Source: Methanobacteriaceae archaeon (GTDB taxonomy: Archaea; Methanobacteriota; Methanobacteria; Methanobacteriales; Methanobacteriaceae). From it: a DNA stretch of 64,000 bases. Location of the stretch: contig JAQXTL010000004.1 in assembly GCA_029219465.1 (NCBI GenBank), positions 62,001 through 126,000 on the forward strand. The letters run 5' to 3'. The notes under the pieces are model-generated. The model did not search any database. It was not told the origin of the DNA and was given only the letters and a program-made list of their open reading frames with translations. Within the stretch, counting starts at the first letter, position 1, and each line of letters opens with the position of its first letter. A program made the position numbers and the translations under genes. This document shows, piece by piece, positions 8,784 through 12,537 of the stretch.

Positions 8784-9314
8784 TCACCTATCTTCTAAAA
8801 AGAAAGATCCCATTTCTTTTAAACCTAATTTAAGATCGTCTTGATCTCCATGCAATTGAACAGTAACATCATCATCAAATTCGATGATTAAACCATTCCA
8901 TTCTGCAATTTCCTGAACTCTTTCTTCAGCTAATGGAACTTTAAGATTAATCCTACCAGTAGTTAAACCTGGAGGAGTATTAACTAAGAACTTTGATCTG
9001 GATTTAGCAAATTCAAATACTTCTTTACCTTGCATAGCCTGTTTTAATAAATCAAGCCATGAATCAACATATTCTTCTCCTTCTTGTTCTGCAATAGTAA
9101 GGAGATTTCCTTGAATATTGTTTAAAGCCATTTCAGCTTTAGCTAAACCATTAATCAAATCTGGATGGGAAGGATCTCTTTTATATGAACTGATTGAAGA
9201 TCTGATTAATCCCATCTCTGGGTTAATTCCACTAGGTATCTCATATCCTTTTTTTGTTAAGTCTATAATAAGATGTTGAAGAACTAACCAATTTTGTTCA
9301 GAAGGTAAACTCAT
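8784..9314 (-). CDS. DUF2096-like conserved methanogen protein
   Basis: A 176-residue soluble protein of unknown function. It has no signal peptide, membrane segment or cysteine cluster. The N-terminal 100 residues are mostly helical ('NWLVLQHLIIDLTKKGYEIP'), and the C-terminal half looks like alternating strands ('GRINLKVPLAEERVQEIAEWNGLIIEFDDDVTVQLHG'). From memory it matches DUF2096, a family confined to methanogens; this should be tested with a profile search. Its ATG overlaps the stop of the upstream gene by 4 bp (ATGA), and the phosphoesterase follows after 5 bp, so the three proteins are made together. Confidence 0.6.
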   Translation of the reverse strand: MSLPSEQNWLVLQHLIIDLTKKGYEIPSGINPEMGLIRSSISSYKRDPSHPDLINGLAKAEMALNNIQGNLLTIAEQEGEEYVDSWLDLLKQAMQGKEVFEFAKSRSKFLVNTPPGLTTGRINLKVPLAEERVQEIAEWNGLIIEFDDDVTVQLHGDQDDLKLGLKEMGSFFLEDR

Positions 9315-9577
9315 AAATGGCCACCTATAATTTTTAAAGTGGTGTGATTAATTTCTGCATCTGCTTCTTTTAACTCAGCTTCAATTTCAGCTACACTGGA
9401 ATAAGAATCTAAGAATAAAACATGATGAGTAGAAGTACCAGCAATGTTTAAAATAGCCATTTCATCACTAGGTTTAAGTTCTCTTTTATCAATAGTTGCT
9501 TTAAATTGAACATAAGGTTCGTATTCTTCTGGAAGGTCTGAATATTTAAATATTCCATCTAAAGTTGCTACAAACAT
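9311..9577 (-). CDS. Small conserved archaeal protein, DUF749-like
   Basis: An 88-residue acidic protein starting 'MFVATLDGIFKYSDLPEEY'. It looks like a compact alpha/beta domain with no metal or nucleotide motif. The call to DUF749, a small methanogen family, is from recollection of the N-terminus and is not certain. AGGTGA precedes the ATG. It is the first gene of the operon with the DUF2096-like protein and the phosphoesterase; its promoter and an adjoining palindrome lie at 9622-9652. Confidence 0.55.
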   Translation of the reverse strand: MFVATLDGIFKYSDLPEEYEPYVQFKATIDKRELKPSDEMAILNIAGTSTHHVLFLDSYSSVAEIEAELKEADAEINHTTLKIIGGHL

Positions 9578-9768: not shown

Positions 9769-10656
9769 CTATTCACCTAATGCTTTTTTGATAGCAGGAG
9801 TTGCATCAATTTGTTGAGCATCGAAGGTTAATTCTTCTGCAGATAATCCCATAGCTAATCCGTATAATTGAGCTAAGTGGAATACAGGAAGTGCAAAGTC
9901 AGTTCCGTATTTTTCGTTTACTTCAACTTGACCTACGTCAAATTGCATGTGACAGAAAGGACATACGTTAACAATTGCATCTACACCAGCAGCAGTCATG
10001 TGGTCGAGTTTTTCTTTGGTGTAACTGGTAGTTACATCTTTATCTCTAGCTCTTAAACCTCCACCTGCACCACAGCACATCATTTTGTCTTTGTAGTCTA
10101 CAGATTTAGCACCAGTAATTTCTACAAGGTCATCTAAGATAGATGGGTTTTCAGCTTGATCTTCGATACCGATAGTTGCGGTAGGTTTTAAGAAGTGGCA
10201 ACCGTAGTGAACAGCAACATTTAAGTCTAAAGGTTTTTCGATGAGGGAAGCTAATTTTTCGAATCCAACGTCGTCTCTTAAAATTTGAGCGAAGTGTTTT
10301 ACGTTTACAGTACCTTTGAATTCTCTACCAATTTCAGCTAAGTTTTCGTTGATTTTAGCTTTTTTAGCTTCGTCTTCGTGTAACATGTGGTTACATTCGA
10401 ATAATGAACCGAAACATCCGTTACATTCGGTCATAATGTCTGCACCCATATCTTCAGCAATAGTTAAGTTACGAGCAGCGACAGTAGCCCAAGTTTCTTC
10501 ATCAAAAGAACCGAATACACCAGGAGCAGGACAACAAGAAGCTCCTTCCATGTCTTTTAATTCAATATCTAATGCTTCAAATAATTTTCTGGTAGCTTTT
10601 TCAACACCAGGATAACGGTTGTTCATAATACAACCTAAGAAGTATGCGATTTCCAT
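9769..10656 (-). CDS. hdrB: CoB-CoM heterodisulfide reductase subunit B
   Basis: The catalytic subunit that reduces the mixed disulfide of coenzymes M and B at two noncubane [4Fe-4S] clusters, closing the methanogenic cycle in the cytoplasmic HdrABC-MvhADG complex. Two cysteine-rich CCG-type motifs are present: 'CIMNNRYPG...GASCCPAPGVFG...TECNGCFG' and 'VHYGCHF...DKMMCCGAGGGLRARD...CPFCHMQ'. The length of 295 residues matches the family. Codon use is richer in preferred codons than in neighbouring hypotheticals, as expected for a highly expressed gene. It follows hdrC after 21 bp; hdrA is not in this window. Confidence 0.97.
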   Translation of the reverse strand: MEIAYFLGCIMNNRYPGVEKATRKLFEALDIELKDMEGASCCPAPGVFGSFDEETWATVAARNLTIAEDMGADIMTECNGCFGSLFECNHMLHEDEAKKAKINENLAEIGREFKGTVNVKHFAQILRDDVGFEKLASLIEKPLDLNVAVHYGCHFLKPTATIGIEDQAENPSILDDLVEITGAKSVDYKDKMMCCGAGGGLRARDKDVTTSYTKEKLDHMTAAGVDAIVNVCPFCHMQFDVGQVEVNEKYGTDFALPVFHLAQLYGLAMGLSAEELTFDAQQIDATPAIKKALGE

Positions 10657-10677: not shown

Positions 10678-11607
10678 CTATTCTTTTAATCCGCCGGTTG
10701 CTTCATCGTAACCGATTAATTCATCGAAAGCGGTAATTTTACATAATTTTTGTACTTCAGTTAATGCTTCAGGGAAAGCATGAGTTGTTGGTGGTACTTC
10801 AGGAAGACCGATTTTTGCTCTTAAAACTTTAACTTCATCGTTGATAGGTACAGCGTGACCAGTATTTAATACAAATACACCAGTCATTTTGTGAGCTTTA
10901 GCCATGTATCCTGCGTGAGCAGCAACGTTACGTGCTTTTTTGATAATTTCAACGATTTTTACGCTTCTGAGACATCTTTCTTGACAGGTGTAACAGGTAG
11001 TACACATCCATAAAGCGTCATCGGTGATAACTTCTTCTTTTAAACCTAATAAACATTTTCTGACGATTTGTCTTACTTTATAAGGAGTTCTTCTTCCAGA
11101 TGGGCATCCTCCACTACAGGTACCACATTGGAAACAGTGTTTTACAGTTTCAATTCCAGCATCAATAAACTCAGCGGTGAAATCTGGATCACGATTACTA
11201 TCATTTAATAATTCTTTATCAGTTAATAAAGTCATAGTATCTCTCTTTATATTTTTATTTGAGTTTTCTTCAACTTCCTCAACAACATCTTCAACAGTTG
11301 TTTCTTCATCTTCAACTTCTTCAACTTCTTCAGCAACTTCTTCTGCCACTTCTTCAGCAACTTCTTCTTCAACTGCTTCTTCAGTTGTTTCAGCTTCTTC
11401 TTCAGATGAATCTTCTACAATTTCGATGTCTTTTTTGAAAGTTAAATCTTTTTCACTGTCTTCCTTTACAGGAGCAACAGTTTCTTCCATTTTTGAAGAT
11501 GTAACTTCGACATCATTAGATGTGTTTGATACATCATTGTTGATGTCTGATTCTTCTTTATCCATATCTCCTTTGAACAAGGATTTAAGACGATTTATTA
11601 TAGACAT
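10678..11607 (-). CDS. hdrC: CoB-CoM heterodisulfide reductase subunit C with acidic N-terminal extension
   Basis: An electron-transfer subunit with two [4Fe-4S] clusters that passes electrons from HdrA to HdrB. The core spans the last 185 residues, with 'CFQCGTCSGGCPSGRRTP' and 'CTTCYTCQERCLRS'. Ahead of it lie about 124 extra residues: a short amphipathic start (MSIINRLKSLFKG), then Ser/Thr/Asp-rich sequence, then a Glu/Val/Ala run with tandem EEVA units. The start at 11607 has GAGGTG 8 nt before ATG. The usual core would begin at ATG 11235, which itself has AGAGAGAT 4 nt upstream. So both a 309- and a 185-residue product are possible. No frameshift joins the two parts. Confidence 0.92.
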   Translation of the reverse strand: MSIINRLKSLFKGDMDKEESDINNDVSNTSNDVEVTSSKMEETVAPVKEDSEKDLTFKKDIEIVEDSSEEEAETTEEAVEEEVAEEVAEEVAEEVEEVEDEETTVEDVVEEVEENSNKNIKRDTMTLLTDKELLNDSNRDPDFTAEFIDAGIETVKHCFQCGTCSGGCPSGRRTPYKVRQIVRKCLLGLKEEVITDDALWMCTTCYTCQERCLRSVKIVEIIKKARNVAAHAGYMAKAHKMTGVFVLNTGHAVPINDEVKVLRAKIGLPEVPPTTHAFPEALTEVQKLCKITAFDELIGYDEATGGLKE

Positions 11608-11676
11608 TAAAAACACACCTCGGATAATCATTGGACAATATTCCTCAAATCCTTATCTAATATTCTTTAGAAGACC

Positions 11677-11704
11677 ATATATAAAGGTTACTAAAATTTT
11701 TAGT
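11677..11704 (-). promoter_or_regulatory. hdrCB promoter with upstream inverted repeat
   Basis: The minus strand carries GTAACCTTTATATATGG: BRE plus TATA (11677-11685), predicting a leader near 50 nt before hdrC. An inverted repeat ACTAAAA-N-TTTTAGT (11690-11704) lies directly upstream. The string GTAACCTTT occurs again 34 bp further up (near 11717-11725), so a regulator or a second promoter is possible. Confidence 0.5.
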
Positions 11705-11793
11705 AGTGTAATCAAAAAGGTTACAGATAATGGAAAAATTTTTATAAACCTAAAGGAACAATAGTAAAATAAAAAGCAAATAGGAAAGAAATA

Positions 11794-12537
11794 ATGATAA
11801 AAAAATTCGAAATTAAATCACATGATGGACCTGGAAGAGTTGGAAAAGTTGATGATGAACTTACACCTAGAATATTTTTTAGCGATGAGTTAAAAATAGC
11901 TCCTAGTGAAGGATCAGCACATAATATTGACCGTGAAATTGCAGAGTTTAATGTAAAAGAAACATTAAGACTTGCAAAAGAAAATGTAGATAACTGCGAT
12001 ATTGCTGTAATACAAGGTTCCAAATACATTGATTTAAGAATTGAATGTTTAAAACAATTAGAAGAAATTGGATATAATGGATTTATAATAGCTAATGGTG
12101 ATGCATTATTAACCAATTCAAGAGAACTTGTTGATGTTATTGTATCTCTTAAAAAAGAAGCTAAAAAAACAAGTTATTTCATTTTCCCTTTTGCAGAATT
12201 ATCATTTATGCCAATTTTAACATATATGGGAATTGACGGATTTTTAGCAGATGCTGCAAACTATTACAGTCATTTAAATGTTTTACAAACTCCAACAAAA
12301 GCATATGACTTAAATAGCTATCCAATTTACGAAGAAATATCTCAAAAAGATTTGGAAAAAAAGAATCTTGAGAATATGGAATTTGTTATAAAAGAAATTC
12401 ATGCCCATATGAAAAACAGATCATTGAGAAATCTTGTTGAAGAACGTTCAGGAACAACTCCACAAAATATCTCAACTTTAAAAATACTCGATAAAACCCA
12501 TATGGACTATTTATTAGAGTATACACAATTATTCTAA
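11794..12537 (+). CDS. Stand-alone tRNA-guanine transglycosylase/ArcS-like domain protein
   Basis: The first residues 'KKFEIKSHDGPGRVGKVD' and the body ('IFFSDELKIAPSEG', 'VIQGSKYIDLRIECLKQLEEIGYNGFIIANGDALL', 'ELSFMPILTYMGIDGFLADAANYYS') resemble the N-terminal TGT-like barrel of archaeosine synthase ArcS, which acts on G15 of archaeal tRNA. The C-terminus 'NRSLRNLVEERSGTTPQN' also fits that group. At 247 residues it lacks the C-terminal PUA RNA-binding domain and is much shorter than ArcS or TgtA. It could be a partner subunit or a repurposed barrel. A TATA-like TTTTTATAAA lies near 11737-11746. Its stop overlaps the convergent downstream gene by 3 bases. Confidence 0.5.
   Translation: MIKKFEIKSHDGPGRVGKVDDELTPRIFFSDELKIAPSEGSAHNIDREIAEFNVKETLRLAKENVDNCDIAVIQGSKYIDLRIECLKQLEEIGYNGFIIANGDALLTNSRELVDVIVSLKKEAKKTSYFIFPFAELSFMPILTYMGIDGFLADAANYYSHLNVLQTPTKAYDLNSYPIYEEISQKDLEKKNLENMEFVIKEIHAHMKNRSLRNLVEERSGTTPQNISTLKILDKTHMDYLLEYTQLF

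Follow-up and report, generated by a model that had tools for sequence, protein, structure and literature searches.

A conserved in-frame N-terminal extension, two candidate translation starts, and a predicted leader kink-turn at hdrC of Methanobacteriales

The window analyzed here is a 64,000-nucleotide stretch of a Methanobacteriaceae genome in which hdrC, on the minus strand, encodes a core of 185 codons (positions 10678 to 11235) that harbors two [4Fe-4S] motifs and matches chain c of PDB 8rvu. The identity of the product is supported by a score of 232.6 bits to TIGR03290 (CoB-CoM heterodisulfide reductase subunit C; curated cut-off, 160 bits) over the two-cluster core, residues 155 to 298 of the complete frame, and by the adjoining hdrB gene (9769 to 10656, minus strand; TIGR03288 at 483.9 bits, cut-off 345), which lies directly 3' of hdrC in the order hdrCB. 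The core ATG at 11235, which is preceded by AGAGAGAT, is in frame with the ATG at 11607, representing the conserved outer start of a stop-free minus-strand frame of 309 codons (11607 to 10678). The long in-frame extension ahead of the 185-residue core that had been noted in a preliminary description of this DNA was, in this manner, borne out. In the source genome, it comprises 124 amino acids (14.0 kDa; pI 4.05) with 46 Asp/Glu versus 12 Lys/Arg residues, and its Glu/Val/Ala stretch is a tandem array. An earlier in-frame ATG at 11631, at which the originally noted span ended, was considered as a start and rejected as not conserved because it is replaced or followed by a stop in relatives (L013, L031, and L087). 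Genes encoding DUF2096 and DUF749 proteins (8784 to 9577, minus strand) are located downstream of hdrCB. The divergent neighbor (11794 to 12537, plus strand) resembles the N-terminal part of the archaeosine synthase ArcS/TgtA, scoring 64 bits to NF040592, far below the cut-off of that family, and a similar frame adjoins hdrC in two lineages that lack the extension (L118 and L082).

At the threshold used, hdrC was found in 58 of 67 Methanobrevibacter genomes, among them every one of the 37 good-quality genomes, and the majority of these matches span all 309 residues; the core-only matches that were checked proved to be contig ends (L119 and L120) or an extension-less lineage (L118). The extension is the rule across the order (151 genomes, 19 genera, and 3 families), with a layout common to the three families in which an amphipathic start is followed by a cysteine-free, usually acidic linker and then by the core. 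The earlier statement that HdrC of related species is approximately 185 residues long holds for the deposited protein, but the genes encode the extension order-wide. Extension-less genes were found in Methanosphaera (L094 to L098) and in genomes G061 (L118) and G072 (L082), with the extension being kept in one Methanosphaera genome (L117) and in G073, the sister of G072. The tree requires three changes for this distribution, which we read as three losses. A proposed link between loss of the extension and loss of CO2 reduction was unsupported, and no simple metabolic correlate was apparent, since Methanosphaera, although mostly without the long form, still has FwdA. In the nearest genome outside the order, the HdrC frame has 188 residues, and the Methanothermococcus and Methanospirillum HdrC chains in the PDB (184 to 191 amino acids) are without the extension. 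One metagenome-assembled genome (G023) carries two different hdrC genes (L013 and L070), both with the extension, which possibly derive from mixed strains.

Among 80 relatives, the 11,185 extension codons contain no in-frame stop, whereas the two remaining frames contain 512 and 2,201, which argues that the upstream frame is more than chance. The 80 extensions have 51 distinct lengths, ranging from 71 to 194 amino acids, every one of which maintains the frame. The pN/pS ratio was 0.45 for the first 15 residues, 0.93 for the linker, and 0.25 for the core, a pattern which indicates that the start of the extension is under purifying selection and that the linker retains only its frame and character. 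An upstream frame that was unconserved and free of purifying selection had been named beforehand as the observation that would count against two HdrC forms; the frame was instead found to be conserved and its first 15 residues selected. A spurious frame is ruled out by its occurrence throughout the order, by the pN/pS values, and by the lack of in-frame stops.

An amphipathic helix at the N terminus of long HdrC, MSIINRLKSLFKGDM, is specified by the first 15 codons (11563 to 11607, minus strand) and is conserved in 80 orthologues with the consensus M-S-[IV]-[ILF]-x-R-L-K-x-[LM]-[FL]-x-G. The amphipathic character suspected previously was confirmed for residues 2 to 13, with a hydrophobic moment of 0.66 (orthologue median, 0.63) and a D factor of 1.62 (above 0.68 in 96% of orthologues), and AF2 places a helix at residues 3 to 11 with a pLDDT of about 65, a moderate value which is silent on membranes. 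AF2 further predicts disorder for residues 13 to 129, and the acidic, cysteine-free, and fast-evolving linker (11236 to 11562, minus strand) has a pLDDT of about 33. None of the 80 extensions contains a cysteine, and their net charge has a median of -28.5 and a range of -77 to +11, a few being near neutral or positive. An SG[TIK]K-type motif (SGTKTS/T-like) was observed in 29 of 81 otherwise unconserved linkers, e.g., those of L080 and L008. A search with residues 1 to 124 alone reported no Pfam or NCBIfam family, such regions seldom scoring in profile searches. A degenerate pattern of the start matched 11 sites in the source genome, which, besides hdrC, are only short frames out of context.

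The profile of the helix plausibly fits membrane-targeting or lipid-binding helices. As in archaeal SepF, the membrane anchor of FtsZ in Methanobrevibacter smithii, an amphipathic, net-positive N-terminal helix is followed by a flexible linker and a folded core, and in the source genome the first residues of the two proteins are alike (MSFIDTLKRSLG in SepF, which begins MSFIDTLKRSLGYEDVEG, versus MSIINRLKSLFKG in long HdrC). The linker and core of the two proteins are, however, non-homologous, and it is only for SepF that membrane binding has been demonstrated, the N-terminal helix of the M. smithii protein being known to bind vesicles (PMC8178401). The likeness to the acidic A domain of FtsY that had been drawn previously stands as a matter of layout, given that this domain, which is also present in FtsY of the source genome, combines a helical start with a long acidic low-complexity region; it does not extend to any shown sequence homology.

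Each of the two starts is associated with a Shine-Dalgarno (SD) site that is unique in the window. The outer site, AGGTGTG (11614 to 11620, minus strand), is conserved order-wide, with a mean SD-anti-SD duplex energy of -8.4 kcal/mol (-7.7 kcal/mol for the hdrB reference). The inner site, GAGAGAT (11239 to 11245, minus strand), lies within the coding frame; Methanothermobacter has AGGAGTGAT here and Methanobrevibacter either GAGAGAT or GGAGAT. Its mean energy is -4.5 kcal/mol, with a median of about -3.4 kcal/mol over all loci. Overall, the inner duplex energy did not differ significantly from that of synonymous shuffles (P = 0.08), since this energy model scores the Methanobrevibacter site as weak, and the informative test is that at the codon level. 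The third base of codon -4 is G in 58 of 65 Lys/Glu codons, as compared with a fraction of roughly 0 to 0.2 elsewhere in the linker close to the core, and each of the seven exceptions reads AAA-GGA, in which the same G-rich motif is displaced by one base. On the tree, from which the AAA-GGA cases were left out, 59 of 59 Lys/Glu codons at this position end in G (background, 9 to 13%), with at least 13 changes between Lys and Glu and no third-base change. Synonymous change, at about 0.48 in the linker, drops to about 0.2 immediately ahead of the core. Taken as sequence evidence, these data point to nucleotide-level selection holding the inner SD, such that the core ATG represents a further start in the same frame, served by a conserved ribosome-binding site of its own. 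In the extension-less lineages, HdrC begins at this inner site, which in Methanosphaera is a strong GGAGTGA. Both starts, therefore, look to be used, and the two HdrC forms envisaged in the preliminary description gain support from the conserved frame, the selected first residues, and the nucleotide-level selection on the internal SD; it is considered probable that both products occur in the cell.

The solved HdrABC-MvhAGD complexes (8rvu and 8rvv of Methanothermobacter, 5odc, and 7bkb) contain the same core protein, with deposited HdrC chains of 183 to 191 amino acids, to which the genes of Methanobacteriales add 71 to 194 residues. The core of locus L102, which we take to be that of M. marburgensis on the basis of the exact sequence match, is identical to the deposited 185-residue chain of 8rvu, although its gene carries both starts, the outer of which gives a protein of 317 amino acids (35.4 kDa versus 20.5 kDa for the short form). 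It is, thus, the short form that the deposited complexes contain. Methanothermobacter Hdr is isolated as part of the soluble fraction; this would be compatible with a tethered form of minor abundance but does not demonstrate one.

With regard to transcription, the TATA box TTTATATA (11678 to 11685, minus strand) is the only conserved promoter for both starts; it occurs with at most one mismatch in 80 of 81 loci at a median of 77 nucleotides upstream of the long ATG, and a similar box precedes the core ATG in only 4 of 81 loci, without a conserved equivalent at that position. One transcript should, therefore, carry both starts. An inverted repeat, GGTTACAC ... TAGTAACC in relatives, flanks the hdrC promoter (about 11675 to 11720) and is conserved from Methanobrevibacter to Methanothermobacter; it is possible that it represents an operator or a promoter shared with the divergent gene.

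Directly before the outer SD, where the mRNA is predicted to begin (we infer the hdrC transcription start from sequence), lies a putative kink-turn, GGAUUU-GA-GGA-AUAUUG-UCC-AAU-GA-UUAUCC (11622 to 11652, minus strand), which the preliminary description had not anticipated. The frame GA-GG..CC-NNN-GA, with facing tandem G-A pairs on both strands, is present in 64 of 81 loci, in the general form GGAYNU-GA-GG...CC-NNU-GA-NNNUCC or a near variant starting from about -45, its 3' GA lying 22 to 23 nucleotides upstream of the outer ATG and its end adjoining the SD. The three-nucleotide bulge is mostly NRU, being TAT, AAT, GAT, or TGT in 54 of 59 distinct elements. Of 236 NC-helix pairs over the elements, 218 were kept, as against 207.4 in shuffled controls (standard deviation, 1.3; maximum of 2,000 shuffles, 212), and this helix covaries through two-sided GC/AT and TA/CG changes, whereas the C helix (68 of 102 pairs, equal to the shuffled maximum) has weaker support. 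The element accordingly combines the standard kink-turn features of facing GA pairs, a three-nucleotide bulge, and covarying helices. A strict pattern matched in 31 of 41 Methanobrevibacter genomes, once each and at the hdrC leader, and the reversed control gave a single match in all 41. The element was parsed directly, RNAalifold on MAFFT alignments having failed to detect it because the loop is variable in length, and no Rfam family was found in the hdrC leader (snoZ103 at 14 bits, far below the cut-off of 44). The strict form is absent from 17 of 81 loci that keep the extension and is thus not obligatory; the lineages with only the short form lack both the kink-turn and the outer SD.

The l7ae leaders of the source genome, another Methanobrevibacter, M. 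marburgensis, and a Methanosphaera read GA-UGGY-loop-RCCA-GAU-GA-SD and so share with hdrC the order of GA, stem-loop, GAU/NRU bulge, GA, and neighboring SD. In archaea, such leaders allow L7Ae to repress the translation of its own mRNA by masking the ribosome site (PMC5539422 and PMC6298567). The hdrC element differs in that it precedes a metabolic gene and the first of two starts, and it is a putative L7Ae target. From its U-U pair at 3b-3n, we infer a class that is expected to fold only with protein. By analogy, L7Ae is somewhat favored as the ligand of this kink-turn and as a repressor of the outer start.

It is, therefore, proposed that a single hdrCB mRNA would give rise to two HdrC proteins, the inner start producing the 185-residue soluble subunit of the solved complexes and the outer start a 309-residue form, of which the helix at residues 2 to 13 most likely binds the membrane surface reversibly. 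The disordered linker would serve as a flexible leash that keeps some of the HdrABC-Mvh close to the membrane. The leader kink-turn most likely adjusts how much of the long form is made; binding of L7Ae would block the adjacent outer SD and leave the inner start open, thereby lowering the ratio of the long to the short form. Tethering of some HdrABC-Mvh is considered the likeliest function of the extension because of the helix profile, the likeness to SepF and FtsY, and the vesicle binding of M. smithii SepF, though its probability as such is judged to be about even; the complete model, in which one mRNA yields two forms, the longer being tethered and its level tuned by L7Ae, is given a similarly balanced chance.

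Production of the short form alone, with the upstream frame serving as an untranslated leader, would agree with the 185-residue deposited protein, but this reading is already contradicted by the stop-free extension codons of 80 genomes, by length differences that occur only in frame, by purifying selection on the first 15 residues, and by the strong conserved SD, and it is regarded as very improbable. The opposite possibility, that only the long form is translated and the 185-residue protein is a product of proteolysis, draws on the ease with which a disordered arm is cut and on the stronger outer SD. It is considered improbable, as it would leave unexplained both the retention of the third-base G at codon -4 through repeated Lys/Glu changes and the twofold drop in synonymous change immediately ahead of the core, and three lineages use the inner start alone. 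A comparably low probability is assigned to the leader element acting as DNA, as the operator of a transcription regulator, in place of a kink-turn in the RNA: its GGAT...ATCC inverted repeat does lie close to the predicted transcription start, but the arms are separated by a spacing that depends on the length of the loop, two-sided changes occur in the helices while the GA/GA and NRU bulge persist, the distance to the start codon is locked, and the l7ae leaders share the order of parts.

As regards the role of the extension, both forms may be made and the long one may dock a soluble basic or metal-protein partner, such as methyl-CoM reductase, MvhB, Fwd, or ribosomes, in place of the membrane. 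Such a partner, the basic version of which was also raised in the preliminary description, is a fair rival to membrane tethering, although we consider it unlikely. The usually strong acidity of the linker and the recurrence of the SG[TIK]K-type motif are in keeping with a docking arm, and the helix could equally fit a hydrophobic groove; a linker that is nearly unconstrained and a charge that ranges from strongly negative to positive would be odd for a specific surface, however, and the helix, which alone is conserved, has a profile that fits lipid-binding helices.

An open-license literature search returned no description of the HdrC extension, the two starts, or the hdrC kink-turn. Dual-start isoforms, amphipathic anchors, and kink-turn leaders are each known in kind; within the reach of this search, what is new is that they occur together on a core enzyme of methanogenesis. 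Hydrogenotrophic methanogens, which dominate methane formation in the rumen and the human gut and among which the Methanobacteriales include gut and rumen species, have HdrABC-MvhAGD as their central energy-coupling complex, and this complex is regarded as soluble and as having a fixed composition. A tail-bearing HdrC, absent from the deposited structures, would reopen reports of partly membrane-associated methanogenesis enzymes, for which the extension would supply a specific and removable anchor. In Methanothermobacter, 50 to 70% of methyl-CoM reductase was located near the membrane under nickel limitation by immunogold labeling (PMC3596918), and tethering of HdrABC-Mvh would, by analogy, be consistent with this movement. 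The mRNAs reported so far to be controlled by L7Ae are its own, that of nop5-fibrillarin, and a few others (PMC5539422), and a kink-turn leader before a metabolic gene would extend such control past these. We tentatively suggest, as a rather speculative possibility, that L7Ae, being a protein of both the ribosome and C/D RNPs, senses ribosome building and sets the membrane-tethered fraction of HdrC via the kink-turn. If this is true, part of the electron-bifurcating Hdr-Mvh would reside at the membrane in methanogens in which it was thought to be soluble only, and growth rate would be coupled to the site of the last step of methanogenesis.
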